Source of the DNA: an uncultured Gellertiella sp.
GTDB taxonomy: Bacteria; Pseudomonadota; Alphaproteobacteria; Rhizobiales; Rhizobiaceae
Reading direction: 5' to 3'
Assembly: GCF_963457605.1 (NCBI RefSeq)
Contig: NZ_OY735139.1
Location: 2,634,001 to 2,698,000 of the forward strand
Length of the DNA: 64,000 nt
Shown one piece after another: positions 1,141 to 19,971 of this stretch. The notes beneath the pieces are model-generated. The model was not told the DNA's origin and ran no database searches. It was given only the letters and a program-made list of their open reading frames with translations. Within the stretch, counting starts at the first letter, position 1; every line of letters begins with the position of its first letter. The position numbers were made by a program, and so were the translations under genes.

Positions 1141-1144
1141 CGGG

Positions 1145-1921
1145 TCAGATCTTCCAGCCGGAATGCAATGCGGCAATGCCGCCGGTATAATTGGTGTATG
1201 TGACACGCTGGAAGCCCGCCTCGCGGATCATGGTGGCGAAATCCTGCTGGTTCGGGAACTTGCGGATCGATTCCACCAGATACTGGTAGGGCTCGGCATC
1301 GCCGGTGATCATCTTGCCGAAACGCGGGATCGCCTTGAACGACCACTGGTCATAGATCGTGTCGAGAAGCGGCATCTCCACTTCGGAAAATTCCAGCACC
1401 AGCAGCCGTCCGCCACGCTTCAGCACCCGGTGGGCTTCTTTCAGCGCCACCTCGATGCGCGGCACATTGCGAATGCCGAAGGCAATCGTGTAGGCGTCGA
1501 AGGAGCCCGCCTCGAAGGGCAGGTCCTCGGCATTGGCCTCGACGAAGGTGAGGTTCGGGGCAAGCCCCTTCTTTTCGGCCCGTTCGGCCCCGACGGCGAG
1601 CATCGAGCCGTTGATGTCAAGCACGGTTGCCTGCGCCAGCCGGCTGGAGGCCTCGACGATGCGAAAGGCAATGTCGCCGGTGCCGCCCGCCACATCCAGC
1701 ACCCTGTAGTCTTCCGACTTGCGCGGGTTGAGGGCGGCCACCATGGCATTCTTCCACACCCGGTGCAGACCCGCCGACATCACGTCATTCATGATGTCGT
1801 ATCGCTTGGCGACCTTATGGAAGACGTCATTGACCAGCGGCTGCTTTTCGCCTTCCGCCACGTCGCGAAAGCCGTAGGACGTGGCCATTCCACCCTTGGC
1901 GGAGGTGCGCTGTTCAGCCAT
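1145..1921 (-). CDS. ubiE: Demethylmenaquinone/2-methoxy-6-polyprenyl-1,4-benzoquinol methylase
   Basis: This is a 258-aa class I SAM-dependent methyltransferase of the UbiE/COQ5 family, which performs the C-methylation step of ubiquinone synthesis. The SAM-binding motif I ([12 protein letters not shown]) is at about residues 75-86. The family [14 protein letters not shown] segment is near residues 41-54. It is first in a minus-strand ubiE-ubiB pair and is divergent from mutM, with about 160 bp between the two starts. Length is normal for the family. Confidence 0.95.
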
Positions 1922-2080
1922 GCGAGATACTCCATCACCCTGTCACGTGCAGTCTTTCAGACCGGACCATATCGAAATTGCTGCAATCGCGCTATCAAGG
2001 GCTTGGTGTCGCGCTGCGGCATGCTGGCGCTGGTCTATAGACCGGATCGCCGTTGGTTGAAACAGGAAGATGGATCGCGC

Positions 2081-2971
2081 ATGCCGGAATTGCCAGAGGT
2101 GGAAACGGTAAGACGCGGGCTTGCGCCCGTGATGGAAGGGGCTGTCATCGCCCGGCTGAGGCTGAACAGGCCGGACCTGCGCTTTCCGCTGCCGGAAGCA
2201 TTCGCCGCCCGGGTGGAGGGACAGGAGATCATCGGCCTTGCACGAAGGGCGAAATATCTGCTGATCGACCTTGCCGATGGCATGACCATCCTCTCCCATC
2301 TCGGCATGTCCGGCTCCTTCCGCATCGAGCAGGGCGAAAATGACACTCAGCCCGGCACCTTCCACATCCCGCGCGGCAAGGATGAAAAGCACGATCATGT
2401 GGTGTTCCATCTCGACGGTCCGAACGGGCAAAGCCGGGTCATCTACAATGACCCCCGCCGCTTCGGCTTCATGGATCTCTTCCGCCGCGCAGACATGGAG
2501 GCGCATGCCTCCTTCCGCGGGCTCGGGCCGGAGCCGGTCGGCAATGCGCTTGATGCCGGCTATCTGGCGCGGCGCTTCGAAGGCAAGGCGCTGCCGCTGA
2601 AATCGGCGCTGCTCGACCAGAAGGTGATTGCCGGGCTCGGCAATATCTATGTCTGCGAGGCGCTGTGGCGGTCGCATCTGTCGCCATTGCGGGCCGCCGG
2701 AACGCTGGTCACAAAAGCAGGCAAGCCGAAACCGGCCCTGACGGCGCTGGTCGAGGCGATCAGGGCGGTGATTGCCGAAGCAATCGTTGCGGGAGGCTCC
2801 TCGCTGAAGGACCATATCCAGACGGATGGATCGCTCGGCTATTTCCAGCACCGGTTTGCCGTCTATGACCGGGAAGGGCAGGCCTGCCGCACGCCGGGTT
2901 GTCAAGGCACCGTCGAGCGCATTGTCCAGTCCGGCCGCTCGACCTTTCATTGCGTGGCCTGTCAGCACTGA
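2081..2971 (+). CDS. mutM: Formamidopyrimidine-DNA glycosylase (Fpg/MutM)
   Basis: This 296-aa bifunctional DNA glycosylase/AP lyase removes 8-oxoguanine and other oxidised purines. The start at 2081 is fixed by the invariant N-terminus MPELPEVE, in which the proline exposed after Met removal is the catalytic nucleophile. Other marks are the H2TH region ([11 protein letters not shown]) and a C-terminal zinc finger with cysteine pairs (CRTPGC and CVAC). An open frame continues upstream of 2081 but is antisense to ubiE and is not part of the gene. Confidence 0.96.
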
Positions 2972-3210
2972 GGCTCATCCCTGAGGCAAGGGCGAAAAGC
3001 CGGGGAATGGTACAGGATGAATCGGGTCGGCAAGGGGGCAAGGGCGAAAAACCGCGTTGACGCGGCCGTTCTTTCCCGCTATATGCCCGCCCACAGCTTG
3101 GAAAGCCGCTCCCGGTTTTCCGCTATTGCTCCCGAAAAGCTGACATGATCGGTCGTCTGCGACCCACACGGCTTCGGTGGAGTTTGGTTTGAATTCGAAG
3201 AGAGGCATCC

Positions 3211-3477
3211 ATGGCCAATACAACTTCGGCGAAAAAGGCGACCCGCAAGATCGCTCGCCGCACTGCCGTCAACAAGGCACGCCGTTCGCGTATCCGTTCG
3301 TTCATCCGCAAGGTTGAAGAAGCGATCGCATCGGGTGATGCAGCCGTCGCAAAGGCCGCCCTGCAGGCTGCCCAGCCGGAACTGGCCCGTGCCGCTTCCA
3401 AGGGCGTCATGCATGCCAATACCGCATCGCGCAAGGTGTCGCGTCTGGCCAACCGCGTGAACTCGCTTTCGGCCTGA
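3211..3477 (+). CDS. rpsT: 30S ribosomal protein S20
   Basis: An 88-aa, very basic protein beginning [13 protein letters not shown], typical of bS20, which binds 16S rRNA early in 30S assembly. An AGAGAGGC-type ribosome-binding site lies just before the ATG. A clear rho-independent terminator follows about 30 bp downstream. Its position upstream of dnaA is usual in rhizobia. About 240 bp without a recognisable gene separate it from mutM. Confidence 0.97.
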
Positions 3478-3506
3478 TACGACCCAAAATTCGCTTATAG
3501 GCTTTG

Positions 3507-3529
3507 GCCCGGTCCTCGACCGGGCTTTT
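3507..3529 (+). terminator. Rho-independent terminator of rpsT
   Basis: A perfect 8-bp stem (GCCCGGTC/GACCGGGC) with a 3-base loop is followed by TTTT. Confidence 0.85.
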
Positions 3530-3617
3530 GCGATTCTATCCGTTCGCAGGCATCCAGCCGCCGCAATGCCTGCGCTGATCATGTCAGCCGCGTGACATAA
3601 AAAATCGTTCTATTTCA

Positions 3618-3713
3618 GACTCTTACGCGGGGTCCAGGGTTGCGCCCACTGCCTGTCTCTACGGCAGGTCGGCCCCGGCGTGAGTCAAGTTATTTTTTTG
3701 TTTTTTTGTTTTT
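3618..3713 (+). ncRNA. Candidate structured RNA 3' end or strong terminator upstream of dnaA
   Basis: The outer arms GACTC...GAGTC (3618-3622 and 3682-3686) continue inward as ACGC/GCGT and GGGGTC/GGCCCC with small bulges, about 15 pairs in all. They enclose an inner CTGCC/GGCAG hairpin. Directly after comes a T-rich run (3690-3713) broken only by single G residues. This is the form of an intrinsic terminator at the end of a small RNA. It could equally be a second terminator for rpsT. No small-RNA family was recognised. Confidence 0.4.
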
Positions 3714-4220
3714 ACCCCCTGCTTATCTGAGCCAAAAATGAATCTCCTTGATTCAACTGGGATTCTTTTTTTCCCGATAGGCGGCATTTTAAATGTGGCG
3801 AGAGAGTCAATGGCCCCCCGCGAAATTGTGGCAAAAAACGCCATTGATCTTGGTTTTTGATCCTGCGTAAATGCTCCTCAGCAAGAGGGCGCGGGGACAG
3901 AAACGAGCATCCGGAACACGAGGCTTCCGGGCTTTCAATCTGCCATACGTTCCTTGCTGCGGGGCTTTCAGTTCCGTCTTTTCATAAAGCTGTAGGTCGT
4001 TGAGCTGGAGTCCGTCAGGATTTCAGTGCGGGGATCTTTTGTGACATGGAGAAGCAGATCCGTCGGAGATGGACGGGAAAGACCGTGACGGGAGTAACGG
4101 AACGGGACGGAAGACGAGGAAAGACCAAGGGAAGGTTCGGGCCGCAACGAGGAAGGCGTCCCGGGCGAGAGGCCGACGAAAGCCGACAAACAACAAGACC
4201 GGAACAATCCGGCATGGGAC

Positions 4221-4238
4221 GGGATCGGTTGCGATCCC
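4221..4238 (+). promoter_or_regulatory. Hairpin in dnaA leader
   Basis: A perfect 7-bp inverted repeat (GGGATCG/CGATCCC) with a 4-base loop and no T tract. It probably forms an RNA structure in the dnaA leader. Confidence 0.4.
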
Positions 4239-4354
4239 GGGAAGCGTTGCGGACCCTGTTCGGAAGGACTTGCATCAGGATCGAAACCTGCCGCTCGCGC
4301 GGCGGGAACGGGATCCGGCAAGCTCGGGGGCTGAACAGAGGACCGGTCAGGACA

Positions 4355-4380
4355 GGACAAAACCCGTGCGGGTTTTGTCC
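4355..4380 (+). promoter_or_regulatory. Perfect 11-bp hairpin in dnaA leader
   Basis: The arms GGACAAAACCC and GGGTTTTGTCC are perfectly complementary around a GTGC loop. It lies 120 bp before the chosen dnaA start. No T tract follows, so it is more likely a leader structure or attenuator element than a simple terminator. Confidence 0.5.
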
Positions 4381-4500
4381 GCCAGGACGCGCTTGCATTG
4401 CCGCGCATGTCTGCTTCCTACGAGGGTTGCAGGCCTGCCCGGGGACAGGGCCGGTGGAGTTTCACCGGTGCAGACAATTTGGAATTTGGAAGGCGGCAAA

Positions 4501-6042
4501 ATGCAAGTGAATTTGGTGACACCAGACGCAGCGGAATTCGGGGACCCTGCGACTGATGGACGTGGTGCAGGACGCACCGATGCTGCACCGGGCGGGACAG
4601 AGATGAAGCACGGTGTTCTTTTCGACCGCGTGAGCGCCCGTCTGAAGGCCCAGGTCGGGCCGGATGTCTATGCCAGCTGGTTCGCCCGGCTGAAGCTCCA
4701 TTCGGTCTCCAAAAGCGTCGTGCGGCTGACGGTGCCGACAACATTTCTCAAATCCTGGATCAACAACCGCTATCTGGATCTGATCACAAGCCTGTTTCAG
4801 GCAGAAGACAGCGAGATCCTGAAGGTCGAGATTCTGGTGCGCACGGCAACCCGCAGCACGCGGCTGCCGGCCGTGGAAGAGACGGTGGTGCCTGCCGCGG
4901 CACCTGCCGCGCCACGCCGCAGCCAGCCGCAGCATGCGGGCCAGCTCGCCGTTGGGGCCGTGCAGTCGCAGCGCCCGGCGACTACCGCCGGCATGCCGTT
5001 TTTCGGCTCGCCGCTGGATCTGCGCTACACGTTCGACAGTTTCGTCGAGGGGGCATCGAACCGGGTGGCGCTGGCGGCGGCCCGCACCATTGCCGAAGCC
5101 GGTGCCAGCGCCGTGCGCTTCAATCCGCTGTTCATCCATTCGACCGTCGGGCTGGGCAAGACCCATCTGTTGCAGGCGATTGCCAATGCGGCGGTCCACA
5201 GCCCGCGTGCGCCGCGCGTCGTCTATCTGACGGCGGAATATTTCATGTGGCGCTTTGCCACCGCCATCCGCGACAATGACGCGCTGACGCTGAAGGATTC
5301 GCTGCGCCATATCGATCTTTTGATCATCGATGACATGCAGTTCCTGCAGGGCAAGATGATCCAGCATGAATTCTGCCATCTGCTGAACATGCTGCTCGAC
5401 AGCGCCAAGCAGGTGGTTGTCGCCGCCGACCGCGCCCCCTGGGAGCTGGAATCGCTCGATCCCCGCGTCCGTTCGCGCCTGCAGGGCGGCGTTGCCATCG
5501 AGATGGAAGCGCCCGATTACGACATGCGCCTCGACATGCTGAATTCGCGCCTGCAGGTCGCCCGGCAGGATGACCCCGCGCTCGACATTCCCGCTGAAAT
5601 CCTTTCCCATGTCGCCCGCAATGTGACCGCCAGCGGCCGCGAGCTGGAAGGGGCCTTCAACCAGCTGGTCTTCCGCCGCTCCTTCGAGCCGAACCTGTCC
5701 ATCGAGCGGGTCGACGAACTGCTGGCCCATCTCGTCGGCTCCGGCGAGCCGAAGCGGGTTCGCATCGAGGATATCCAGCGCATTGTCGCCCGTCATTACA
5801 ATGTGTCGCGACAGGAGCTGGTCTCCAACCGCCGCACGCGGGTGATCGTCAAGCCGCGCCAGATCGCCATGTATCTGTCGAAGACGCTGACGCCGCGCTC
5901 CTTCCCCGAGATCGGCCGCCGGTTTGGCGGGCGCGATCACACCACGGTGCTGCATGCGGTGCGCAAGATCGAGGAACTGATCGGCGAGGATAACAAGCTT
6001 TCGCATGAGATTGAGCTTCTCAAACGGCTCATAAACGAGTAA
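4501..6042 (+). CDS. dnaA: Chromosomal replication initiator protein DnaA
   Basis: DnaA binds origin DnaA boxes and melts the origin in its ATP form. Called from 4501 it has 513 aa: domain I (from [19 protein letters not shown]), a proline/alanine-rich linker, an AAA+ domain with Walker A (GLGKTH) and Walker B (LLIIDDMQF), and domain IV with the DnaA signature [10 protein letters not shown]. The ATG at 4501 follows an AAGGCGG-like ribosome-binding site. An internal ATG at 4603 begins the conserved part and is a possible alternative. The Walker A lysine is embedded in a family-typical but non-canonical GLGKT. A strong terminator follows the gene. Confidence 0.95.
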
Positions 6043-6062
6043 ACCGACATAAATGAGTTCAA

Positions 6063-6107
6063 AACCGGCGCTGATTTCACAAATCAGCGCCGGTTCTCGT
6101 TTTGTTT
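6063..6107 (+). terminator. Rho-independent terminator of dnaA
   Basis: A perfect 15-bp stem (arms 6063-6077 and 6081-6095) with a CAC loop is followed by CTCGTTTTGTTT. It ends about 30 bp before the next start codon. Confidence 0.9.
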
Positions 6108-6137
6108 GGTCGAAAATCTCTGCAAAGGACAAGAACA

Positions 6138-7196
6138 ATGAGCTTTTCCAAAATCGCCGTCCTTGGGCTCGGCAAGGTCGGGCGGCTGGCGGCAACGCTG
6201 CTGCATGAAAGCGGATTCCAGGTCACCGGCGTCGATGCTAACCTGCCGAAAGCCGTGCCGTTTGCCTGCCAGAGCGTGGATCTCTCCGCGCTGGATGCGG
6301 TGGAAACCCTGCTCAAAGGCCATGAGGCGGTGCTTTCCTGCCTGCCCTATCATTTGAATGCGCCGATTGCCAAAATCGCCCATGCGCTGGGCCTGCATTA
6401 TTTCGACCTCACCGAAGACGTGCCGACCACCAATGCCATCCTCGAACTGGCCAAGACCGCAACCAGCCTGATGGCGCCGCAATGCGGCCTTGCGCCGGGT
6501 TTTGTCGGCATTGTCGGGTCGAGCCTTGCCGACCGGTTTGAAAAATGCCGTTCGATCCGCATGCGCGTCGGCGCGCTGCCGCAGAACCCGACAGGCCTGC
6601 TCGGCTATGCCTTCAACTGGTCGCCGGAAGGGGTGGTGAACGAATATCTGAACGATTGCGAAGTGATCGAGGATGGCGTGCGCAAGCTCGTCTCGCCGAT
6701 GGAATGGCACGAGCAGATCTATGTCAATGGCGTCAAGCTCGAAGCCTTCACCACCTCGGGCGGCCTCGGCACCATGTGCGACACCATGCTCGGCAAGGTC
6801 GACAACATGGATTACAAGACCATGCGCTATCCCGGCCACATGGAGCTGATGAATTTCTTCTTCCATGAACTGCTGATGCGCGACCGCCGCAAGCTGGCAG
6901 GCGAAATCCTCACCCATGCCAAGCCGCCGGTCGATGATGACGTGGTCTATGTCCATGTCGCCGCCGAAGGCACGGATGGCGGAGCGCTCCGCCGCAAGGA
7001 ATTCGTGCGCGCCTATTACCCCATCGAAGTGGCGGGCGAACGCCGCACGGCAATCGCCTGGACCACATCCGCCTCTGTCGTCGCCGTCATCGAAATGGTC
7101 CGCGCCGGCACCCTGCCCAACAAGGGCTTCCTCCACCAGGAACACATCGCCCTCGACCAGTTCCTGGCGACCCGGACGGGGAAGCTGTTTGCGTGA
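6138..7196 (+). CDS. Saccharopine dehydrogenase-like NAD(P)-dependent oxidoreductase
   Basis: A 352-aa protein with an N-terminal Rossmann fold (VLGLGKVGRLAA, about residues 7-18) and the saccharopine dehydrogenase/reductase C-terminal domain. The family includes saccharopine reductase, carboxynorspermidine synthase and L-lysine 6-dehydrogenase. The exact substrate, probably a lysine or polyamine derivative, cannot be read from the sequence. The ATG at 6138 is chosen because AAAGGAC precedes it; an upstream ATG at 6102 sits inside the dnaA terminator. This is the last core-type gene before the low-GC island. Confidence 0.82.
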   Translation: MSFSKIAVLGLGKVGRLAATLLHESGFQVTGVDANLPKAVPFACQSVDLSALDAVETLLKGHEAVLSCLPYHLNAPIAKIAHALGLHYFDLTEDVPTTNAILELAKTATSLMAPQCGLAPGFVGIVGSSLADRFEKCRSIRMRVGALPQNPTGLLGYAFNWSPEGVVNEYLNDCEVIEDGVRKLVSPMEWHEQIYVNGVKLEAFTTSGGLGTMCDTMLGKVDNMDYKTMRYPGHMELMNFFFHELLMRDRRKLAGEILTHAKPPVDDDVVYVHVAAEGTDGGALRRKEFVRAYYPIEVAGERRTAIAWTTSASVVAVIEMVRAGTLPNKGFLHQEHIALDQFLATRTGKLFA

Positions 7197-7580
7197 TGGG
7201 GGCGTGAGGGATGGCCCCGGGGGTGGAAGCCTCCGGGGGGAATTAGGCATCGCAATTGCGGTGCCGAAGGTCGATATTGTACCAACCCAGAATCGGGCTT
7301 GGATCTCCACAGGGGTGATGTCTCGTTTGCGCCAGAAGGCGACGTTGCGCGAGTATCTGCACCTTTGCGCGAACGCGTGCGGGCGATTTTCAGTCCGTTG
7401 CTGCCTGGCACTCTTGCCAAGACAACGTCTTCCTTCAGAGATTAAGGTCCACGTCAAGTCTCCGGTTTGAAGAGCTTGGGCTGATTGGAAGCGGAGCGCC
7501 TGGCAACTGCCGTAGTGGCGGCTAGCGTAACCGTAGCTGGCACACCATATTATTGTTGTTCAACTATGGAGGAAAAACAC
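7197..7580. other. Left edge of accessory island, no intact gene
   Basis: About 380 bp where composition changes from GC-rich core to island. No intact gene is visible. The minus strand of about 7315-7350 encodes a short peptide ending NVAFWRKRDI. This resembles the NVRFWRKADI-type spurious peptides produced by a common rhizobial intergenic repeat, so the segment may be a repeat fragment. Confidence 0.4.
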
Positions 7581-7820
7581 ATGCCGCAACCGCTTACCCC
7601 TGAGCAACAGGGCCGACTTATTCTCGATGCTATGAAATCCTACAATGTTCGTTCGGGTGAAGTTCTGATGCAGCAGCACGTTATGCAGCACGGCATCAAA
7701 CACGGGCTCTCAAATGATGATCTCACTGCGGGCGTAAACTACGCCCTTGAGCAGGGGTGGATTACCATCAACAGCAACAAGCATTATATCCTGACTGATA
7801 AAGGCTACGTGGAGGTCTGA
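7581..7820 (+). CDS. Small hypothetical protein in defence island
   Basis: A 79-aa protein starting MPQPLTPEQQ. The ATG is preceded by a very strong ribosome-binding site (GGAGG about 8 bases upstream), which decides the start and supports real translation. It is predicted soluble and mostly helical, with a C-terminal stretch that could be a small winged helix. No family was recognised. Codon use is less GC-biased than the core genes, like the CBASS genes downstream. It could belong to the island's mobile ancestor or be an accessory to the defence operon; nothing in the sequence decides. Confidence 0.65.
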   Translation: MPQPLTPEQQGRLILDAMKSYNVRSGEVLMQQHVMQHGIKHGLSNDDLTAGVNYALEQGWITINSNKHYILTDKGYVEV

Positions 7821-8138
7821 TCCAACGAAGCAAGTGTGGCATCCAGCAATTCCCGCTGGGTGCCATATTTTGCTTCCCACGGCCGTTTGCCCATCAAATG
7901 AATCGTATTGCGTGAATGCTGATGGTGCGCTTCGCAGAGGAATGGCCCCCTCATCCTTGGCCTTCTGGCTCATACCGCACCACTCAAATCCGATGGGGTG
8001 GTGGCAGGCTGTTCGGCCGGCGCACTCACGGCTCCAGTTGCCCGCAACCGCACATTCCAGTTTGGCAACGCGCGATAGGTGAGCAGAATTTTCGTTTTCA
8101 AAGTTCGTCTTTCGTTCTCCTGTGGATAATGCCACCAA
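7805..8138 (-). pseudogene. Frameshifted phage-type HNH nuclease remnant
   Basis: Two overlapping minus-strand frames read as one protein if a base is restored near 7945. The upstream frame gives HLSRVAKLEC, then ACHHPIGFEW and GMSQKAKDEGAIPL. The downstream frame continues CEAHHQHS, TIHLMGKRPWEAKYGTQREL and stops at 7805. The order (RVAxLxC, CHHP, GMxQKxxDExxIPLC, HH, IHxMGxxxWExxYGT) matches my knowledge of small HNH/Ref/DUF968-like phage nucleases. The second Cys of the usual CxxC is Ala in the open frame, so there may be further damage. I read it as a decayed prophage gene. The downstream half alone could be translated as a 49-aa ORF from an ATG at 7954 preceded by AGAAGG. Confidence 0.55.
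7837..7871 (+). terminator. Possible terminator after the 79-aa gene
   Basis: Near-perfect 11-bp arms (TGGCATCCAGC and GCTGGGTGCCA, one G-U pair) are followed by TATTTTG. The same bases also encode part of the opposite-strand nuclease remnant, so the hairpin may be coincidental. Confidence 0.35.
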
Positions 8139-8195
8139 CCTTAGGACGTATCACCGCCATTCGTGTAACTGTGTTGTCGAAGCAAGGTGAGCGCC

Positions 8196-9137
8196 ATGAC
8201 CGAAGCCATCGAAGCAGTAAAGCCGTACCGCATTCTCAGCCTTGACGGCGGAGGTGCGAAGGGATTCTACACTTTAGGCGTCTTGGAGGAGATAGAAGGG
8301 CTTATCGGGTGCCCTCTTCATGAAAAGTTTGACCTGGTCTTTGGAACAAGTACCGGCGCTATTATTGCGGCAATGATTGCCCTTGGTATGCCGGTGAAAG
8401 AAATACACGCCCACTACCTCAAATATGTGCCAGAGGTCATGCGGCTAAAAACGCCTTCTCAGAAATCCGCAAAGCTTGCTGAGCTTGCCAAGGAAATCTT
8501 CAAGGAAGCCAAATTTGATTCCGTGAAAACCGGCGTCGGCATTGTGACCACCAGATGGGTGATCGAGCGGCCGATGATCTTCAAAGGAAGTGTCGAGCAA
8601 GCTCATGGCAGGAAGGGTACGTTTCTTCCCGGCTTCGGGGTGACCATTGGGGACGCCGTCCAAGCCTCCTGTTCTGCCGTGCCCTTTTTCCCTCCGAAGA
8701 CCGTCACCACAGGCAAGGGTGACGAGGTTGAGCTTATCGATGGTGGATACTGCGCCAACAATCCGACCCTTTACGCTATCGCCGATGCCACCCGTGCGCT
8801 GAACCTTGCCCACAAGGACTTGCGTGTCGTCAGCGTCGGTGTCGGAGTCTATCCTAGCCCCAAGCCGCGTTTTTTCAGCGCCATGTACTGGGCGAAATAT
8901 TTCCAGAGTCTCCAACTTTTGCAGAAGACGCTGGAAATCAACACCCAATCGATGGACCAGCTTCGCGTGATCCTTTTCAAGGACGTGCCAACCGTCCGCA
9001 TCAGCGACACGTTCGAGCAGCCTGAAATGACCACGGACCTCTTCGAGCATGACCTGAAAAAGCTGAATATCCTTCGGCAGCGCGGGCGTGAGTCCTTCGC
9101 CAAGAATGAGCCACTCCTCAAGGAATACCTCCTATAA
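8196..9137 (+). CDS. capV: Patatin-like phospholipase, CBASS effector (CapV-like)
   Basis: A 313-aa patatin-family lipase. The oxyanion-hole loop DGGGAKG is at residues 17-23, the nucleophile elbow GTSTG at 50-54 (Ser52) and the catalytic DGG at 182-184 (Asp182). It is followed after 12 bp by a CD-NTase gene. In CBASS systems a cyclic nucleotide made by the CD-NTase switches on CapV, which degrades membrane phospholipids and stops phage by killing the cell. The ATG at 8196 has AAGG eight bases upstream; a GTG at 8187 is the alternative. The gene is lower in GC than its core neighbours, consistent with transfer. The activity is known for the family; the pairing is seen directly here. Confidence 0.88.
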   Translation: MTEAIEAVKPYRILSLDGGGAKGFYTLGVLEEIEGLIGCPLHEKFDLVFGTSTGAIIAAMIALGMPVKEIHAHYLKYVPEVMRLKTPSQKSAKLAELAKEIFKEAKFDSVKTGVGIVTTRWVIERPMIFKGSVEQAHGRKGTFLPGFGVTIGDAVQASCSAVPFFPPKTVTTGKGDEVELIDGGYCANNPTLYAIADATRALNLAHKDLRVVSVGVGVYPSPKPRFFSAMYWAKYFQSLQLLQKTLEINTQSMDQLRVILFKDVPTVRISDTFEQPEMTTDLFEHDLKKLNILRQRGRESFAKNEPLLKEYLL

Positions 9138-9149
9138 CGGGATTTGCGA

Positions 9150-10034
9150 ATGCCTATCAACGAGAACCAGCTCGATACGTGGTCAGCACTAGGCAGCGTC
9201 CAGCAATCGGCGGCGACCTACAAGACTATCAGTGACGTCTTGAACGACGCCGAATCCCCGTATTACCTGAAACTTTTCGATACTTTCCTGCAAGGATCGT
9301 ACGGCAACGATACCAACATCTATGCCGACAGCGATGTGGATACGGTTATTCGACTTACTTCGGTTTTCTACTCCGATACAAGCTCTCTCGGAGCAGGTGA
9401 CAAAGCAAACTACGACCAGAAACGTTCGCCTGCCGAATACTCCCTGGCCAAATTCAAGGAAGAGGTTTCGGGCTGGCTTACCAAAAACTTCGGCAACGGC
9501 GTGAAGGCTGGCACCAAGGCCATCTACATTCCAGGCGGCGGCGTGCGGCGCGATGCGGACGTGCTTCCTTGCGCCGAGCATCGTCACTATTGGACCTATC
9601 CCACATACGGAGAGCCAACTTTTCGGGAGGGCATCGTCTTCTGGAAGAGCGACGGCACCAAGATTGTCAATTACCCGAAGCAGCATTCAGCAAACTGCAC
9701 GACGAAGCACCAGAATACCGGAAGCTATTTCAAGCCAACCGTGCGCATCTTCAAAAACATGCGGAACCGGATGATCGCAGCAGGTACACTTGAGGCGGGT
9801 GTTGCACCGTCATATTATCTCGAAGGCCTGATTTTCAACGTCCCTAATGCGTCTTTCGGCAAGTCGTATCAACAGACCATCACCAACTGCATCAATTACA
9901 TTTCGATTGCAGACACGAAGGAGTTTACCTGCGCAAACGGCATTCACTACCTACTTCGGGAAGGCCACGACGTCTGCTGGTCGCCGGCTAAGTTTGCGTC
10001 GTTCATGTACGCCCTCAAAAAATTCTGGGGCTGA
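9150..10034 (+). CDS. CD-NTase (cGAS/DncV-like nucleotidyltransferase), CBASS sensor
   Basis: A 294-aa nucleotidyltransferase of the cGAS/DncV-like group. The hallmark GS motif is at residues 49-50 (LQGSYGNDT), followed by DVD (Asp62, Asp64) and a third carboxylate in RRDADVLP (133-140). Such enzymes make cyclic oligonucleotides in response to phage and activate a linked effector. It follows the patatin gene by 12 bp in the same direction, so the two form a minimal operon. No E1/E2 (Cap2), JAB (Cap3), HORMA or TRIP13 gene is adjacent, which corresponds to a type I CBASS layout. The clade and the nucleotide product cannot be assigned by eye. Confidence 0.88.
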   Translation: MPINENQLDTWSALGSVQQSAATYKTISDVLNDAESPYYLKLFDTFLQGSYGNDTNIYADSDVDTVIRLTSVFYSDTSSLGAGDKANYDQKRSPAEYSLAKFKEEVSGWLTKNFGNGVKAGTKAIYIPGGGVRRDADVLPCAEHRHYWTYPTYGEPTFREGIVFWKSDGTKIVNYPKQHSANCTTKHQNTGSYFKPTVRIFKNMRNRMIAAGTLEAGVAPSYYLEGLIFNVPNASFGKSYQQTITNCINYISIADTKEFTCANGIHYLLREGHDVCWSPAKFASFMYALKKFWG

Positions 10035-10354
10035 GACGCCTCTACCGAATACTTCACCCACTTTTCCAGCATGACCTTGCGGGTGTAAACGTTCGCGCTG
10101 GTCGCCAGCCGGACATTGGCAATGAACGCTGCCAGCGACGGCATCCTGCTTTCTCCCTTACCGCCCAGCGATAGGCCTTGCGCACAGCGTACAGCGGGAA
10201 TTCGGCCAGTTGCACAGGTCAGATTAGAATGTCTATCGCCGTGAAACGAGGAACATCCAAGCGAAGACTAGGCAAAGCATACTCTCTATGACCGCTTTGG
10301 GCCATAAGCGGACATCAGCCAATCACACCGCTCCCGCCAACCCGCGCACCCCCC
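10035..10354. other. Right edge of island: minus-strand coding debris and repeat fragment
   Basis: This 320-bp region has no intact gene. On the minus strand, two frames give protein-like sequence: LAEFPLYAVRKAYRWAVREK (about 10150-10218) and MPSLAAFIANVRLATS running into the CD-NTase 3' end (start at 10144). They may be remains of two overlapping genes, perhaps phage-derived; no family was assigned. Near 10288-10320 the plus strand encodes MTALGHKRTSA, a peptide typical of a common rhizobial intergenic repeat. Beyond that, core sequence resumes at hemW. Confidence 0.45.
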
Positions 10355-11536
10355 TCAACACGCCAGATCCGCCACCACCGAATCCAGGATCAGCATCCCC
10401 GAAGGCGTGCAGCGGAGTCGTGAATTGCCGAGGCGTTCGAGGAAGCCGTGGGAGATCAGGAATTGTTCGCGGTCGGGGTCGGGTTCGCGGCCGGAGAGTT
10501 GTTGCCAGCGGACGAGGTCGATGCCTTCCTTCAGTCTCAGGCCCATCAGCAGCAGCTCGTCGGCCTGTTCCTCATGGCCGAGCCGCTCTTCGTCGAGAAT
10601 GCCGTGGCCCTGTTCCTCCACCCGCGCCAGCCAGTTTTCGGGGTGCTTTTCGGTGGCGGTGGCGAGCTTGTCGCGGCCGATGGTCAGGCGGCCATGGGCG
10701 CCGGGGCCGATGCCGGCATAGTCCCCATAGCGCCAGTATGTGAGGTTGTGGCGGCTTTCCGCCCCCGGCCGGGCGTGGTTGGAAACCTCATAGGCGGGCA
10801 GGCCATGCGCGGCTGTGATCTCCTGCGTCGCCTCATAGAGCAGCGCCGATTCCTCGCCGTCGGGCAGGGTGAATTTCTTCGCCTTGTGCAGGCCGAAGAA
10901 GGGCGTGCCCTCCTCGATGGTCAGCTGATAGAGAGAGAGGTGATCGACCGCACAGGAAATCGCCTGTTTCAGCTCGCTCTCCCAGGCCTCGATTGTCTGG
11001 CCGGGCCTGGCATAGATGAGGTCGAAGGACATGCGCGGAAAGATCTCCCGCGCCAGCCGGATCGCGGTCAGTGCCTGCCCGACATCATGCAGCCGGCCCA
11101 GGAATTTCAGGTCCGGATCATTCAGCGCCTGCACGCCGAGCGACAGCCGGTTGACACCCGCCGCCCGGTAGCCATGGAAGCGCTCCGCCTCGACGCTGGA
11201 AGGATTGGCCTCCATGGTGATCTCGATGCCCTCGGGCACGTGCCAGAAGCGGGCGATGCCGTTCAGGATCGCATCGACGGTTTCCGGCAGCATCAGCGAT
11301 GGCGTGCCGCCGCCCATGAAGATGCTGGTGACGGTGCGCGGGCCGGAAAGCCCCCGCATCGTTTCCATCTCCTTCAGGAAGGCCGCGACAAAGCGCGGCT
11401 GATCCACCTGCTGGTGGCGGACATGGCTGTTGAAATCGCAATAGGGGCACTTGGCTGCGCAGAAGGGCCAGTGGACATAAAGACCAAAGCCCGGTTCCCC
11501 GGTATCCGGCAGAAGAAGCGGCGTGATCGTGCCCAT
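10355..11536 (-). CDS. hemW: HemW-like radical SAM protein (coproporphyrinogen III oxidase-like)
   Basis: A 393-aa radical SAM protein with the cluster motif CAAKCPYC near residues 26-33 and the family HemN/HemW C-terminal domain. HemW is regarded as a haem chaperone rather than a true oxygen-independent coproporphyrinogen oxidase, and older annotations use the latter name. The start codon overlaps the stop of rdgB by one base (TGATG), which implies translational coupling. It marks the right boundary of the accessory island. Confidence 0.93.
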   Translation of the reverse strand: MGTITPLLLPDTGEPGFGLYVHWPFCAAKCPYCDFNSHVRHQQVDQPRFVAAFLKEMETMRGLSGPRTVTSIFMGGGTPSLMLPETVDAILNGIARFWHVPEGIEITMEANPSSVEAERFHGYRAAGVNRLSLGVQALNDPDLKFLGRLHDVGQALTAIRLAREIFPRMSFDLIYARPGQTIEAWESELKQAISCAVDHLSLYQLTIEEGTPFFGLHKAKKFTLPDGEESALLYEATQEITAAHGLPAYEVSNHARPGAESRHNLTYWRYGDYAGIGPGAHGRLTIGRDKLATATEKHPENWLARVEEQGHGILDEERLGHEEQADELLLMGLRLKEGIDLVRWQQLSGREPDPDREQFLISHGFLERLGNSRLRCTPSGMLILDSVVADLAC

Positions 11537-12189
11537 CAGCGTGCCGATGCCTCCAGGCAGGTCTCGACGAAGCGCTTGAAGGCGCGGGCGCGGTGGGAGA
11601 GCGCCTCAGGCGCGCCCGGCACCCAGCCATGTTTTTCCTCCGCCGTCATCTCGCCAAAGGTCCGTTCATGGCCTTCCGGCTGGAAGATCGGGTCATAGCC
11701 GAAACCGGACGTGCCGCGCGGCGGCCAGACGACAGTGCCCTCGATCTCGCCGCGAAACAGTTCCAGATGGCCATCCGGCCAGGCAAGGCAGAGCACGCTG
11801 ACGAAGCGGCCCGATCGCTCGCCGGGGAGGCGCGCGCCCTTCTTTTGCAGGGCATCCTCGACCTTTTGCATCGCCATGCCGAAATCCCGGCTGCCGTCCA
11901 GCCTTTCCGCCCAGTTGGCGGTATAGACACCCGGCGCGCCGTCCAGCGCATCGATGACAAGGCCGCTGTCATCCGACAGTGCAGGCAGGCCCGAGGCCTT
12001 TGCCGACGCCAGCGCCTTGATCGCGGCATTTTCCTCGAAGCTGGTGCCGGTCTCGTCGGGCTCGACGAAGTTCAGCTCGGCGGCAGATTTCGCCGAAAAG
12101 CCGAGCGGGCCGATCAGATCGGCGATTTCACGGATCTTGCCCTGGTTATGGCTGGCGACAACGATGGTCCTGGTCTCGAGCTTGCGCAT
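11536..12189 (-). CDS. rdgB: dITP/XTP pyrophosphatase (RdgB/HAM1)
   Basis: A 217-aa HAM1-family enzyme that hydrolyses dITP, ITP and XTP to keep deaminated purines out of DNA and RNA. Characteristic segments are [10 protein letters not shown] at the N-terminus and the metal-binding SDDSGL. The ATG at 12189 is preceded by GAGGAT. A longer open frame upstream exists but would overlap the next gene and lacks family sequence. It is coupled to hemW. Confidence 0.95.
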
Positions 12190-12271
12190 CCAAAAATCCT
12201 CATTCCTGTTCGTTTGTCCAAGGGCGCAAGCAGGCTTGCGCGGGAAAGCGGTTCCCCTTGTCCCTGACAAA

Positions 12272-12694
12272 CTACAGACCCCACAGGGCCGGTTCGGCGC
12301 ATTCCAGACTGTTGCCAGCCGGATCGCGGAAGTAAATCGAGCGCGGGCCACCCGGCCAGCGAAAATCGGCCTCAATGTCGACGCCGCGCGCCTGAAGCCG
12401 CCCGACCATGCCGTCGAGCCGGTCTGCGGCAACCCGGAAACAGGCATGTCCCGGACCGCGTGCCCCGTGGGCGGGGATCGGCAGGGTGCCCGGAGTAGGC
12501 GGCTTTTCCGTCTCGGCAGCATTGAAGATCAGCAGGATCGAGCCCCCGAGCGAGAAGAAGATGTGGCGGTTGCCCGCCCGGCCGATTTTTTCAAGCCCGA
12601 GGATCACGCCATAGAAATGCTCGGCCCGGTCGAGATCATCGACATAGAGTGCGGTTTCGAGAATGCCGTCTATGGCCTGATCGGGCGCTGCCAT
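12272..12694 (-). CDS. VOC (glyoxalase/bleomycin resistance) family protein
   Basis: A 140-aa protein with one vicinal-oxygen-chelate fold made of two beta-alpha-beta-beta-beta modules. The N-terminal [16 protein letters not shown] and the C-terminal [12 protein letters not shown] are typical and contain likely metal ligands. The substrate is unknown; relatives include dioxygenases, glyoxalase-like enzymes and antibiotic-binding proteins. It sits between rph and rdgB on the same strand, about 26 bp after the rph stop. Confidence 0.85.
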
Positions 12695-12720
12695 CTGTCA
12701 ATCTCCGGCGGGCTTGTCCA

Positions 12721-13443
12721 TCAGGCGCCGGAAATTGCCTGCTTCTGCAACGCGACGAGATCGCTGATGCCGTTGCGGGCAAGGCCGAGCAGGGTCAGGA
12801 ACTCGGTTTCCGAAAAGGGCGTGCCTTCCGCCGTGCCCTGGATTTCGACGATGCCGCCGGAGCCGGTCATGACGAAATTGGCATCGGTTTCCGCTGCGCT
12901 GTCTTCGAGATAGTCGAGGTCGATCACCGGCTGGGTGGCAAAGATGCCGCAGGAAATCGCCGCCACATGGTCCTTCAGCACCCGGTCAGGCTTCACTATG
13001 CTGCGGGCTTCCATCCATTTCAGGCAATCATGCAGCGCAATCCACGCCCCGGTGATCGAGGCCGTGCGGGTGCCGCCATCGGCCTGGATCACATCGCAGT
13101 CAATCGAGATCTGCCTTTCGCCGAGCGCTTCGAGATCGACGACGGCGCGCAGCGAGCGGCCGATCAGCCGCTGGATTTCCTGGGTGCGGCCGGATTGCTT
13201 GCCGCTGGCCGCCTCGCGGCGCATCCGCTCGCCTGTCGCGCGCGGCAGCATGCCATATTCCGCCGTTACCCAGCCCTTGCCGCTGTTGCGCAGCCATGGC
13301 GGCGTCTTTTCCTCAAGGCTTGCGGTGCACAGCACATGCGTATCGCCGAATTTCACCAGGCAGGACCCTTCGGCATGTTTGGAAAAATTGCGCTGAAACG
13401 AAACAGTGCGCATCTGGTCGGTTTTTCTGCCGGAAGGCCGCAT
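12721..13443 (-). CDS. rph: Ribonuclease PH
   Basis: A 240-aa phosphorolytic 3'-5' exoribonuclease that trims tRNA 3' ends. Family marks are the N-terminus RPSGR, the [14 protein letters not shown] segment and the phosphate-binding [16 protein letters not shown] region. The start at 13443 gives the standard family length; an upstream in-frame ATG at 13695 would add sequence antisense to hrcA and is rejected. It is divergent from hrcA, an arrangement common in this group. Confidence 0.95.
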
Positions 13444-13560
13444 GGAGAACTCCTGAAATTCTGGTTCACGCGTCTTAAGGCCCGGGCCCGGTTTTTGCAA
13501 AGGAAAAGCGGGTGGCCGGGATTGCCACAGACCTGTCGCGGCACTTTTTCCTTTTGCCAT

Positions 13561-13575
13561 ATGCGCCCGGCGCAT
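13561..13575. promoter_or_regulatory. Inverted repeat between rph and hrcA
   Basis: ATGCGCC/GGCGCAT, 7-bp arms around one base, lies in the divergent promoter region and is followed by an AT-rich TATAT. It could be an operator. It is not a CIRCE element. Confidence 0.25.
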
Positions 13576-13618
13576 TATATCTGTCTGATGGGATGGATAC
13601 GGAAACTGGCACCGCGCG

Positions 13619-14707
13619 ATGGGTCTGGCGACGATGAAGGGCATTGAAGCTGCCGCGCAGCTGGATGAGCGGTCGCGGGAGATATTCCGGCGCATCGTCG
13701 AAGGCTATCTGGATACCGGTGAGCCGCTGGGCTCGCGCAGCCTGTCGCGGCTCCTGCCGATGTCGCTGTCGCCCGCCTCGGTGCGCAATGTGATGAGCGA
13801 TCTGGAAGAACTCGGCCTCATCTATTCCCCGCATATCAGCGCCGGTCGCCTGCCGACCCAGTCGGGTCTGCGGTTCTTCGTCGATGCCTTCATGCAGGTG
13901 AGCGATCTCTCCGGCGAGGAGCGGGCCAGTATCGACCGGCAGATCCGTCCGCGCGACCGCGACCAGCCGGTCGAAAGCATGATGACCGAGGCCTCCCGCA
14001 TTCTCTCCGGCATTTCCGGCGGCGCCGGTCTGGTGATCACCGCCAAGAATGACAGCGTGCTGAAACACGTCGAATTCATCCGGCTGGAGCCGACCAAGGC
14101 GCTGGCGGTTCTGGTCGGCGAGCATGACCAGGTGGAAAACCGCATCATCGAGCTTCCCGCCGGCACCACCTCGTCGCAGTTGGTGGAGGCCGCCAATTTC
14201 ATCAATGCCCACATGACCGGCCAGACCCTGCCGGACCTGCGGCTGCAGCTTCTCAATCTGCGCAGTGCCGTCAGGAACGAACTCGACACCCTCTCGCAAA
14301 GCCTGGTGGAGCGTGGCCTTGCCGTCTGGTCGGGTGGTTTCGACGATGACAAGCCGACGCAGCTCATCGTGCGCGGCCGGGCCAATCTGCTCGAAGGGGT
14401 CGGCGGGGCGGAGGATATCGACCGCTTGCGGATGCTGTTTGACGATCTGGAAAAGAAGGACAGCCTCATCCAGATCCTCAGCCTTGCCGAGACCGGATCG
14501 GGGGTGCGGATCTTCATCGGCTCGGAAAACAAGCTGTTTTCGCTCTCCGGCTCCTCGCTGATCGTCGCGCCCTATCGCGACAGTGAAGACCGCATCATCG
14601 GCGCCGTCGGCGTCATCGGTCCGACCCGCCTCAACTATTCCCGCATCGTGCCGATGGTCGATTATACCGCCCAGGTGCTGGCAAACCTGTCGCGCAAGGC
14701 GCTTTAA
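13619..14707 (+). CDS. hrcA: Heat-inducible transcription repressor HrcA
   Basis: A 362-aa repressor of class I heat-shock genes (groESL, dnaK type) that binds CIRCE operators. It has an N-terminal winged helix ([17 protein letters not shown], then [18 protein letters not shown]) and the HrcA dimerisation/GAF-like domain. Rhizobial homologues often start a little before the conserved part, so 13619 is kept; an ATG at 13634 is also possible. It is followed by grpE, as is usual. No CIRCE repeat is visible in the window. Confidence 0.94.
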
Positions 14708-14886
14708 CGGCCCGGGCGCCGAAAATGCCGCCATTCAATCTTGATTTTTGGCCCGAGAACATCGATATCCGCGCTACAACAGTTCGCTGAAGTGCGGACT
14801 GTGTTTCCATTCCGGGGATCGGCTGCGGGTTTTTCCGACAGGACCTGCGGTCGCACCCCGCATGAAGTTGAATACCGGAGAACGGC

Positions 14887-15501
14887 ATGAGCGAAGAAAC
14901 AGGCACACACGGCGCTGATGAAGCGGAGATCAGCATGGCGGAAGATACGGCATCTGGCGAGATGCCGGGCACCGAAAGCAGAAGCGAGCTGGATCCGCTG
15001 GATGCCCTTCGCGCTGAAAACCATGACCTGAAGGATCGCTTCCTGCGGCTCGCCGCCGACATGGACAATCTGCGCCGCCGCACCGAACGGGAAATCAAGG
15101 ATGCCAAGTCCTATTCCATGGCAGGCTTTGCCCGGGACATGCTGGCCGTCTCCGACAACCTGCGCCGCGCGCTCGACGCCATCCCGGCGGAAGCCCGCGC
15201 CAGTGCCGATGCCGGTCTTTCGGCCCTGATCGAAGGGGTGGAAATGACCGAGCGGGCCATGCTCTCGGCGCTGGATCGCCACGGCGTGCGCAAGATCGAG
15301 GCGGAAGGCCAGAAATTCGATCCGAATTTCCATCAGGCGATGTTCGAAATCCCGAACGCCGACGTGCCGAACAACACCGTCGTGCAGGTCGTGCAGGCTG
15401 GTTTTACCATCGGCGAACGGGTCCTGCGCCCGGCCATGGTCGGCGTCGCCAAGGGTGGCCCGAAGGAGCCGGCCGGCCAGGACAACAGCCAGACGGCCTG
15501 A
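14887..15501 (+). CDS. grpE: Nucleotide exchange factor GrpE
   Basis: A 204-aa co-chaperone that releases ADP from DnaK. An acidic N-terminal tail is followed by a long coiled coil (about residues 35-85, including [20 protein letters not shown]) and the C-terminal beta domain ending near [19 protein letters not shown]. It lies 180 bp after hrcA, so it may have its own promoter. A bidirectional terminator separates it from ptsN. Confidence 0.95.
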
Positions 15502-15521
15502 GCTTTGCCTGTCTTCAATGC

Positions 15522-15550
15522 AAAAACCCGGCCTCGCGCCGGGTTTTTTT
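15522..15550. terminator. Bidirectional terminator between grpE and ptsN
   Basis: An 11-bp stem (AAAAACCCGGC/GCCGGGTTTTT, loop CTCGC) with T and A runs on either side serves the two converging genes. Confidence 0.88.
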
Positions 15551-15577
15551 ATCGGTCTTTGTCGGTTGCCTCGTCGG

Positions 15578-16042
15578 TCAGGCCGGATTGGCGATCTGTT
15601 CCTGCGTCAGGCAGGCATAGAGGGCGGAGGCCGATTCGGTCGAGCGGAGCTTGGTGACCAGATCCTGGTCACGAAAGAGGCGTGCAATGCGCGACAGCGC
15701 CTTCAGATGATCGGCGCCTGCCCCTTCCGGGGCGAGCAGCATGAAGACCAGATCGACCGGCTGGTCATCGAGCGCCTCGAAATCCACCGGCGTTTCCAGC
15801 CGGGCAAAGACCCCGGCAATGGATTTGATCTGCGGCAGCTTGCCATGCGGGATAGCAATGCCATTGCCGACCCCGGTCGAGCCCAGCCGTTCGCGCTGCA
15901 GGATCACGTCGAATATTTCCCTTTCGGGCAGGCCGGTGACACGCGCCGCGCGGGCGGCCAGTTCCTGAAGCACCTGTTTCTTGGAATTTACCCGGAGTGC
16001 CGGGATAATCGCATCGTCTTGCAGCAAGTCTGCCAACGCCAT
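15578..16042 (-). CDS. ptsN: PTS IIA-like nitrogen-regulatory protein PtsN (EIIA-Ntr)
   Basis: A 154-aa EIIA-Ntr protein of the nitrogen phosphotransferase system. The phosphorylated histidine is His66 in GIAIPHGK. It works with PtsP and NPr to link nitrogen and carbon status to potassium transport and sensor kinases. It lies downstream of hpf and rpoN on the minus strand, the classical order rpoN-hpf-ptsN. Confidence 0.95.
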   Translation of the reverse strand: MALADLLQDDAIIPALRVNSKKQVLQELAARAARVTGLPEREIFDVILQRERLGSTGVGNGIAIPHGKLPQIKSIAGVFARLETPVDFEALDDQPVDLVFMLLAPEGAGADHLKALSRIARLFRDQDLVTKLRSTESASALYACLTQEQIANPA

Positions 16043-16121
16043 TCTTCTGGTCCTTCATGCCGCCAGCGCAGCGCTGCGGCGGAGGGGCAAGGTCCTGCCC
16101 GCCCATCCGCCAAAGTCGTTC

Positions 16122-16694
16122 TCAGCCGGTGATGCTTGCGGCATCGATCCAGCCGATATTTCCGTCCTGGCGACGGTATACGATGTTGAGATGCGCATTG
16201 CCCGGGCTGCGGAACATCAGCACCGGCTCGTCCGTCATGTCGAGCGCCATCACGGCGGCCGCGACAGACATGGTCTTCAGTTTCTTCGTGCTTTCGGCCA
16301 CGATGGCGGGCGCGAAGTTTTCCGGCACTTCCTCGCTCTCGTCGTGGCTGGCATCCATCACCGTGTAGGAAATTTCGCCATGGTTGTTCGACGGACCGAG
16401 GTGGTGGTCCTTGAGCTTGCGCTTGTAACGCCTGAGCCGCTTTTCGATCCGCTCGAACGAGATGTCAAACGCTACTTGCGGATCGGTCGCTTCACCGGCT
16501 GCATGCAGGTTGGCACCTGAATCGAGATGCACGCGGCAATCGGCGGAGAAGCGCGAACCCGACTTCTCCACGATCACCTGACCCGAAAAGCCGCCATCAA
16601 AATACTTCCTGATGGCATCGCCGATCTGGCTTTCAATCCTAAGGCGGAAAGTATCGCCAATCTCCATATGTTTACCGGCTATACGCACGCTCAT
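16122..16694 (-). CDS. hpf: Ribosome hibernation promoting factor, long form (HPF/RaiA)
   Basis: A 190-aa protein with an N-terminal ribosome-binding S30AE domain (about residues 1-100) and a C-terminal dimerisation domain that includes DEPVLMFRSPGNAHLNIVYRRQDGNIG. This is the long type that forms 100S ribosome dimers in stationary phase. It lies between rpoN and ptsN. The 250-bp gap to rpoN suggests a separate promoter. Confidence 0.94.
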   Translation of the reverse strand: MSVRIAGKHMEIGDTFRLRIESQIGDAIRKYFDGGFSGQVIVEKSGSRFSADCRVHLDSGANLHAAGEATDPQVAFDISFERIEKRLRRYKRKLKDHHLGPSNNHGEISYTVMDASHDESEEVPENFAPAIVAESTKKLKTMSVAAAVMALDMTDEPVLMFRSPGNAHLNIVYRRQDGNIGWIDAASITG

Positions 16695-16944
16695 GAGACA
16701 CCCCTTCTACCTGGTGATTTGCACGGGTCAGTCTACGCCAAGCCCGAACGCTCTCCAAGTATTTCGCGTGACGAAGTGAAATTTGCCTGATTTTCCCGCC
16801 CGCGAGGCGCAAGCTGGTTCACTTTGAACGTCGATGCCGGTTGCGGCGGGCTTCTACGCCTGGCCGGGGCCGGATGTCAATGCTTTGTTAAGATTACCAC
16901 GCCATCGAATGGGTTCCCGTCAGTGATCCTTGGCATGAGAGGGA

Positions 16945-18458
16945 TCAAAAGGCCGAAAGCCGGGCCTGGGCCTGCTTTTCCCGGCGTCGTTGCACGGAAG
17001 AGGCGATATTCATGGCCTCCCGGTATTTCGCCACGGTGCGCCGGGCGAGCTTTATGCCGGATTTCCCGAGCGTCAGCACGATGTCGTCATCGGAAAGGAC
17101 ATCCGCCGGGCTTTCCTCGGCAATCATCGCCCGGATGCGGGCGCGCACCGCCTCTGCGGAATGGCTGTCGCCGCCATCCGCACTGGCAATCGACACGGTG
17201 AAGAAATATTTGAGTTCGAACACGCCGCGCGGCGTTTCCATGTATTTGTTCGAGGTCACCCGGCTGACGGTCGATTCATGCACGCCGATCGTATCGGCAA
17301 CCGCCTTCAGCGTCAGCGGCCGGAGCTGGTCGACGCCATGCAACAGGAAGGCATCCTGCTGCCGGACGATTTCTTCCGACACTTTGAGGATGGTGCGGGC
17401 CCGCTGATCGAGGCTTCTGACCAGCCAGTTGGCCGTCTGCAGGCAATTGGCAAGGAAGCTCTGGTCCTCTCCCGCCTTCATCGGCCTGGCCGAGACGGCG
17501 CGGTGATAGGACTGGTTGACCAGCACCCTCGGCAATGTCGCCGGATTGAGGTCGACCAGCCAGCTTCCGTCAGACCCGGCGCGCACGATGACATCGGCGG
17601 TCACGGTTTCCGCCATGCCGCCGCCAAAACTGGCTCCGGGCTTGGGGTTGAGCCGCCTGATATCCGCGAGCATCGCCACCAGGTCCTCCTCGCTTGCCCG
17701 GCAAATCCGTCTGAGCTGAACGAAGTCGCGCTTGCCAAGCAGGTCGAGATGCCGGAGCAGCGCCTGCATCATCGGGTCGAGCCGATCAAGCAGCCGGAGC
17801 TGAATGGAAAGGCATTCGGCCAGCGAACGGGCGAAAATGCCGGAAGGGTCCAGCGTTTGCAGCTTTTCGAGGATCGGCTCCGCTTGCCCCGGTTGCAAAC
17901 CGAGCCGGCTTCGAGGGGGGCAATCTGTGCTGCGTCGATATAGCCGCTGTCTTCCAGAAGCTCGCACAGCGCATCGGCGATCAGCCGGTCGCGTGGATCG
18001 GCAAGCAGGAACGGCAGCTGGGTGGCAATATGGGCCTGCAATGACAGCGGCCCGGCACTGAAGTCATCCGGCTCATAGGCTTCGTTTTGTCCGGAGGCGG
18101 GCATCGAGACCCAGCTCTCCTGCAATTCGGCACTGGCTGCCCGTGCTGGCATCTCTTCGACCGCATAGGCCTCGTCAAAATTCTGGTCCATGCCCGGACG
18201 GATCTCGGGCGGCTCGCCACTCCTGTCGCCGTCAGGTCCGTCCTCGAAAGGAGATTGCGGTGGCGGAGAAGGGGCGTCACCCTCCTCGTCCTCCGCGCCG
18301 CTGGACAGGTCCAGAAGCGGGTTGCGCTCGACTTCTCCGGCGATGAATTGCAGCAGTTCGGCATGCGACATCTGCAACAGCTGGATCGACTGCATCAACT
18401 GGGGCGTCATGACCAGAGACTGGCTCTGGCGCTGATACAGACCGACGGAAAGTGCCAT
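16945..18458 (-). pseudogene. rpoN: RNA polymerase sigma-54 factor RpoN, frame broken by one-base frameshift
   Basis: RpoN directs transcription of nitrogen and other genes from -24/-12 promoters. The N-terminal part (from 18458) has the Q-rich activator region LVMTPQLMQSIQLLQMS and an acidic linker. It is in frame until about 17925 (IDAAQIAPLEA). The core-binding and DNA-binding parts, including the RpoN box ARRTVAKYREA, continue in another frame from about 17902 (LGLQPGQAEPILEKLQ) to 16945. Restoring one base between these points gives 504 residues, normal for the family. A run of six G (17915-17920; C on the coding strand) lies at the break. This could be a real mutation, a slippage hotspot or a sequencing error. 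Every other part is intact. Confidence 0.85.
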
Positions 18459-18591
18459 GGCAGCCCATCATGCTTGCTGGAACGGTGGTGCGGACAGGAT
18501 GTCTGCTGCTCACACCTGAAACTGGCCCAAAAATTGCGTGTTTTTCGGCGGCGGTCAATGCGCAGCCGAAAACAAGGTAAAACGGCAGAGA

Positions 18592-19386: not shown

Positions 19387-19401
19387 GGGCTGCTCTGGTC
19401 C

Positions 19402-19959: not shown

Positions 19960-19971
19960 GGAAGGCGACCT

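Follow-up and report, generated by a model that had tools for sequence, protein, structure and literature searches.

A probable type I CBASS operon pairing a clade E cyclase with a patatin-like phospholipase in a recently transferred block of a Gellertiella genome

Two adjoining genes in a stretch of 64,000 nucleotides from an uncultured Gellertiella sp., which we refer to from this point on as the window, are best explained as a type I CBASS operon. Judging from the sequence and by analogy, we consider it highly probable that the signal of a CdnE cyclase, most likely 3',3'-cUMP-AMP, would trigger a membrane attack by a patatin-like phospholipase. Both genes are intact and carry complete active-site motifs, their products belong to established families of anti-phage proteins, the two genes are conserved as a pair, and the block of DNA that carries them (Table 1) was acquired by recent horizontal transfer. 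The profiles and the structure model support a known kind of system, already described, which would consist of a CdnE and a patatin of the cUMP-AMP type rather than a DncV and a CapV. The window would extend the known cUMP-AMP-type CBASS by one example that is chromosomal, recently transferred and found in a rhizobial genome.

In the proposed mechanism, phage infection would activate the CdnE (9150-10034), which would use UTP and ATP to build a cyclic dinucleotide, 3',3'-cUMP-AMP being the likeliest. This dinucleotide would bind the adjoining patatin (8196-9137), and the bound patatin would cut the phospholipids of the membrane, so that the cell would be killed or stalled before the release of phage progeny. 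Relatives of the two proteins are the source for the signal, for the step at which the patatin binds it, for the membrane damage and for the protection from phage.

Table 1. Features at and around the gene pair, in window coordinates
Feature	Position	Strand	Basis or remark
Saccharopine-dehydrogenase family gene	6102-7196	+	neighbour upstream of the block
Horizontally transferred block, 2,984 bases, carrying the pair	7329..10312	.	identity to Rhizobium sp. 18065 (L058), abrupt ends
Small ORF, 79 aa, probably a passenger gene	7581..7820	+	conservation against L058, rarity
HNH-like gene remnant ('HNH' by eye)	7820-8138	-	DUF968 below cut-off, 0.0028 and 0.0015
Patatin-like phospholipase, putative effector of the cUMP-AMP-activated type	8196..9137	+	profiles, PDB match, motifs
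Clade E CD-NTase (CdnE), cyclase	9150..10034	+	profiles, PDB match, Foldseek, active-site residues
Radical-SAM/HemN_C (HemW-like) gene	10355-11536		neighbour downstream of the block

The patatin and the cyclase

The patatin reading frame is complete, from an ATG at 8196 to a stop codon ending at 9137, and encodes 313 amino acids in which the DGGGAKG, GTSTG and DGG motifs are all present, as the initial annotation had reported. It matches the PADLOC model PDLC00755, 'Effector, Phospholipase', with an E-value of 2.6e-161, and scores 503.1 bits against the NCBIfam model NF053870, 'anti-phage phospholipase', which is above the curated cut-off of 400. The closest solved chain is PDB 9iom (E-value 1.6e-134), deposited as a cUMP-AMP-activated phospholipase; after chains of this type, the next PDB matches are patatin and CapV chains at about 1e-10. 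Alignment with the cUMP-AMP-activated phospholipase of entries 9iom, 9ion, 9iop and 9ioq takes in 302 residues of the window patatin, and the catalytic motifs are shared. We take CapE to be the name for phospholipases of this type and, presumably, for the window effector as well. The glycines, alanine and lysine of DGGGAKG, Ser52 of the GxSxG motif and Asp182 of DGG are identical in all 22 aligned intact patatins, an alignment from which three damaged genes (L048, L059 and L073) were omitted, as was L005, which scores exactly like L064 and probably duplicates its sequence.

The nucleotidyltransferase gene follows on the same strand after 12 bases (9138-9149). It too is complete, from an ATG at 9150 to a stop codon ending at 10034, and its 294-residue product has the GS and DVD motifs that had been pointed out in it, in the form of GS at residues 49-50 and the aspartates D62 and D64, together with a third aspartate, D137. 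The protein matches the PADLOC model PDLC00788, 'Cyclase', with an E-value of 6.6e-123, and the same model is matched by all 25 aligned cyclase relatives. Because the E-values of the patatin and the cyclase against their PADLOC models are so small, chance is excluded as the source of the profile matches. NCBIfam NF053871 gives 451.2 bits, above its curated cut-off of 350, and the Pfam family SMODS (PF18144) gives 20.6 bits, under the gathering cut-off of 26.5. The five PDB sequence matches with an E-value of 1 or less are all CdnE chains, headed by 6e0k at 2.1e-44. Residues G49, S50, D62, D64, D137 and N174 are identical across the 25 aligned cyclases.

An AlphaFold2 model of the cyclase, built from 21 sequences, has a mean pLDDT of 86.9, with loops 50-56 and 59-61 poorly modelled. 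When this model was queried with Foldseek, the first rank was 6e0k, the c-UMP-AMP synthase RmCdnE (4.4e-23, TM 0.83), and ranks 1-12 were all CdnE chains. The CdnE of Rhodothermus marinus (6e0k, 6e0l) has its fold in common with the modelled cyclase (TM 0.83-0.84), but the identity between them is 34%; an acceptor-site Asn, the catalytic aspartates, and a Cys and a Trp on the donor side are shared. By its PDB sequence matches and its modelled fold, the nucleotidyltransferase is a CD-NTase of clade E. The initial annotation had allowed that the gene might prove to be a CCA-adding, antibiotic or other non-CD-NTase nucleotidyltransferase. This candidate was rejected, as the PADLOC, NCBIfam, Pfam and PDB matches, and the 50 Foldseek matches listed, are CD-NTase models or chains.

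Taken together, a CD-NTase gene is present and an effector gene is adjacent to it, in the manner of type I CBASS. No genes for Cap2, Cap3, HORMA or TRIP13 proteins occur among the flanking ORFs (saccharopine-dehydrogenase family, 79-aa ORF and HemW-like). The proposal of a type I CBASS without these regulatory genes, made in the initial annotation, is borne out by the profiles, the solved relatives, the cyclase fold and the conservation of the pair. Their absence, which had been presented as special, is not so: according to PMC10419184, the majority of CBASS operons pair a single synthase with a single Cap gene and go by the name type I, and by that definition a locus without ancillary genes has the ordinary type I layout. 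The genes also correspond to the NCBIfam anti-phage pair DS2_1/DS2_2 (NF053870/NF053871), in that both curated cut-offs are exceeded over nearly the full length and the genes are adjacent; no difference from that pair was found. A further parallel is found in Yersinia aleksiciae, whose type I CdnE operon has a clade E cyclase and signals through 3',3'-cUA (PMC11722364), the signal that would be expected here too. Promoter-like and terminator-like sites showed no excess over chance (promoter-like, 2 against 2.1 expected). A literature search, largely confined to journals outside subscription, returned no paper joining CBASS, patatin and cUMP-AMP.

Pairing and distribution

Among 394 genomes of the family, NF053871 scores above its cut-off in six and NF053870 likewise in six, and these are the same six genomes, that of the window included. 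At lower stringency, 14 of the 394 have a match to NF053871 at an E-value of 0.001 or less and 22 a match to NF053870 at 1e-20 or less. A sample of 299 genomes from the phylum contains the cyclase above cut-off in two, both from the window's own family. Relatives of the cyclase with E-values of 1e-20 or less occur in 38 of 72,556 plasmid records, and there is no cyclase match at 1e-5 or less in 50,697 phage records. Since so few genomes have the cyclase, its distribution is sporadic.

The conservation of the pair was followed in 25 loci picked by their cyclase (16 search matches, 5 family genomes and 4 plasmids, with L005 and L064 probably one sequence), a set that leaves out eight weak, below-cut-off cyclase matches from family genomes. 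At every one of the 25, a patatin match lies directly upstream of the cyclase on the same strand, the gene being damaged at three of them; the possibility, raised in the initial annotation, that the two genes are not kept together elsewhere finds no example in this set. The damaged genes are those of L048, L059 and L073, to which one further plasmid locus may be added, and the cyclase frame stays open beside them. In Shinella oryzae (L048, 6398-7618), the patatin is split by an insert of about 1.2 kb containing an ORF that by eye is transposase-like. Only the last third of the gene remains in L059, while in L073, a metagenome assembly, it is split across two frames. On a Sphingobium plasmid (L108, 2621-4836), IS21 genes stand between a short annotated patatin ORF and a stretch made up of the patatin end and the cyclase. 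Since the cyclase, or the two genes together, served to select all of these loci, they are uninformative on which of the two is lost more often.

A recently transferred block

The pair is carried by a block that stands apart from its surroundings. GC content is 0.536 across 7329-10312, against 0.618 for the whole window, and when windows of 2,984 bases are taken at steps of 100 bases, only 1 of 611 is as low as the block or lower. The patatin and nucleotidyltransferase genes themselves have values of 0.537 and 0.524, in agreement with the lower GC first noted for them. The block is 97.4% identical to DNA of Rhizobium sp. 18065 (L058) over 2,985 alignment columns, with sharp boundaries at either end of the match. 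The dnaA gene of the Rhizobium genome has 79% identity to that of the window and its hemW 78%; the two matches there end 135 bases apart, and the block is located about 700 kb away from them. Because the block is so much more similar than dnaA and hemW, and because it occupies another location in the Rhizobium genome, it is the product of a recent horizontal transfer between lineages. Some part of it is matched in 5 of 297 genomes sampled from the order, and the whole length in the window's own genome only.

Beside the block in Rhizobium sp. 18065 is an ORF of 206 amino acids for a phage-type integrase (5.5e-21). Searches for palindromes, tRNAs, Rfam families and repeats revealed no mobility mechanism for the block: the window lacks a tRNA, bases 1-20000 have no Rfam match, and none of the repeats listed for 5950-10500 is a long terminal repeat. 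A 28-base palindrome at 10288-10315, on the downstream edge of the block, is altered in Rhizobium sp. 18065. As an exact pattern it is single-copy in its own genome, in which the reversed control pattern also matched once.

The initial annotation had placed the pair between two conserved genes. Both of the neighbours that it named, the saccharopine-dehydrogenase gene and the HemW-like gene, are present, but the former does not serve as a conserved flank. The dnaA and hemW matches are separated by 753-769 bases in four congeners, while the window has about 4,312 bases between them, and since the saccharopine-dehydrogenase gene is missing from this interval in all four, it is itself accessory at the site. 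In the two congeners inspected, the interval contains an ORF that by eye is an N-acetyltransferase. The cyclase has no match in any of the four congeners, one of them a genome of 77% completeness with a weak patatin match that falls below cut-off.

Two further features lie within the block. The 79-aa ORF differs from its Rhizobium sp. 18065 counterpart at 2 of 237 bases, compared with roughly 5-6% over the block's three non-coding stretches, and is 98.7% identical. Profile searches gave no convincing family match. Matches to it exist in 3 of 394 family genomes, namely its own and two at 26-32% identity, and by tblastn it is found in 1 of the 25 CBASS loci, some of which are short. On these counts it was rejected as a third component of the system, and the rarity of its matches in family genomes and CBASS loci makes it likelier to be a passenger. 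The HNH-like remnant occupies two frames in the window and is largely in one frame in Rhizobium sp. 18065. Outside the block, positions 12209-12273 have 14 further partial matches (75-83%), distributed over both contigs of the genome, and probably represent a dispersed intergenic repeat.

The expected signal and competing explanations

Two features of the nucleotide-binding sites bear on the product of the cyclase. PMC10442399 ascribes the choice of uracil in the acceptor site to Asn166 of RmCdnE and reports that an (R/Q)xW motif closes the donor site to purines. The equivalent of Asn166, counted by hand along the PDB sequence alignment with RmCdnE, is Asn174 in lid 1 at the acceptor site, and it is conserved in all 25 cyclases. 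The (R/Q)xW motif of lid 3 is absent. Trp277 is present in all 25 sequences; two residues before it, at position 275, there is no R or Q in any of them, but V in 16, T in 7, and N and H in one each. The window cyclase has the Val, whereas RmCdnE has a Glu at or next to that place, where the alignment has a gap. Cys261, aligned with Cys252 of RmCdnE, is kept in 23 of the 25. Since Asn174 is kept, R or Q is lacking at 275 and Cys261 is mostly kept, one uridine and one purine would be expected in the product. This points to 3',3'-cUMP-AMP as the most likely one, with ATP as the probable donor, a reading taken from these residues and from relatives. The signal named for 9iom is also cUMP-AMP. In PMC11722364, cUA and also cUU were prepared with one clade E enzyme, that of Y. 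aleksiciae, and the product can therefore be mixed.

It is improbable that the CdnE yields a cyclic di-pyrimidine, cUU or cUC, in place of cUMP-AMP. LpCdnE, ClCdnE and EfCdnE, which make cyclic di-pyrimidines, do rank among the solved chains nearest to the cyclase, and the Trp of the di-pyrimidine motif is retained throughout, but the R or Q reported to exclude purines is missing from every sequence, and the closest solved relative of the effector is named as cUMP-AMP-activated. Less probable still is a unit of the CapV/DncV type, in which 3',3'-cGAMP would activate the patatin, although this was the comparison drawn in the initial annotation. CapV and DncV of Vibrio cholerae, a type II CBASS (PMC10419184), likewise combine a patatin effector with a CD-NTase whose signal drives it. 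The window patatin matches NF041079, a model of cGAMP-activated CBASS lipases (CapV type), at 3.7e-38, and solved CapV chains are among its more distant PDB matches. Nevertheless, it reaches only 131.5 bits on that model, below the cut-off of 200, and is far nearer to 9iom; the cyclase belongs to another clade, E, and has the uracil-selecting Asn; and no Cap2 or Cap3 gene adjoins the pair. The comparison thus fails for both proteins and, because the patatin is under the NF041079 cut-off and the cyclase is of clade E rather than DncV-like, cUMP-AMP would be the expected signal and not cGAMP.

A broken HNH-like remnant within the block, together with damaged patatins at other loci, could suggest instead an inactive, decayed island retained by chance near dnaA. 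We hold this to be very unlikely, as both window genes are intact, every active-site residue is present, and between the patatin and its counterpart in Rhizobium sp. 18065 there are 9 silent codon changes but just 2 that alter an amino acid, the pattern that purifying selection would be expected to leave.

Unequal change of the two proteins

Where the patatin has those 9 silent and 2 amino-acid changes, the cyclase shows 8 codon changes that replace an amino acid and 3 that are silent between the same two blocks (Fisher p 0.030). Its replacements fall into two clusters, at residues 29-44 and 229-235, apart from a single one at 132. The 97%-identical copies in two distant hosts would offer a clean natural pair with which to ask what in the cyclase tracks phage pressure. 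From these small counts we put forward, as a tentative suggestion that we think has perhaps a minor chance of being correct, that the cyclase is the infection sensor and evolves faster than the effector, with the cyclase and not the patatin facing the phage arms race. If so, the two clusters and residue 132 would mark contact with a phage trigger or a phage inhibitor. The gap in identity between patatin and cyclase may also simply come from two proteins that differ in constraint. Over the 231 pairs that can be formed from 22 systems, which share ancestry and are not independent, patatin identity is greater than cyclase identity in 219. In pairs involving the window, it is higher in 19 of 21, the reverse being seen with L061 and L062.
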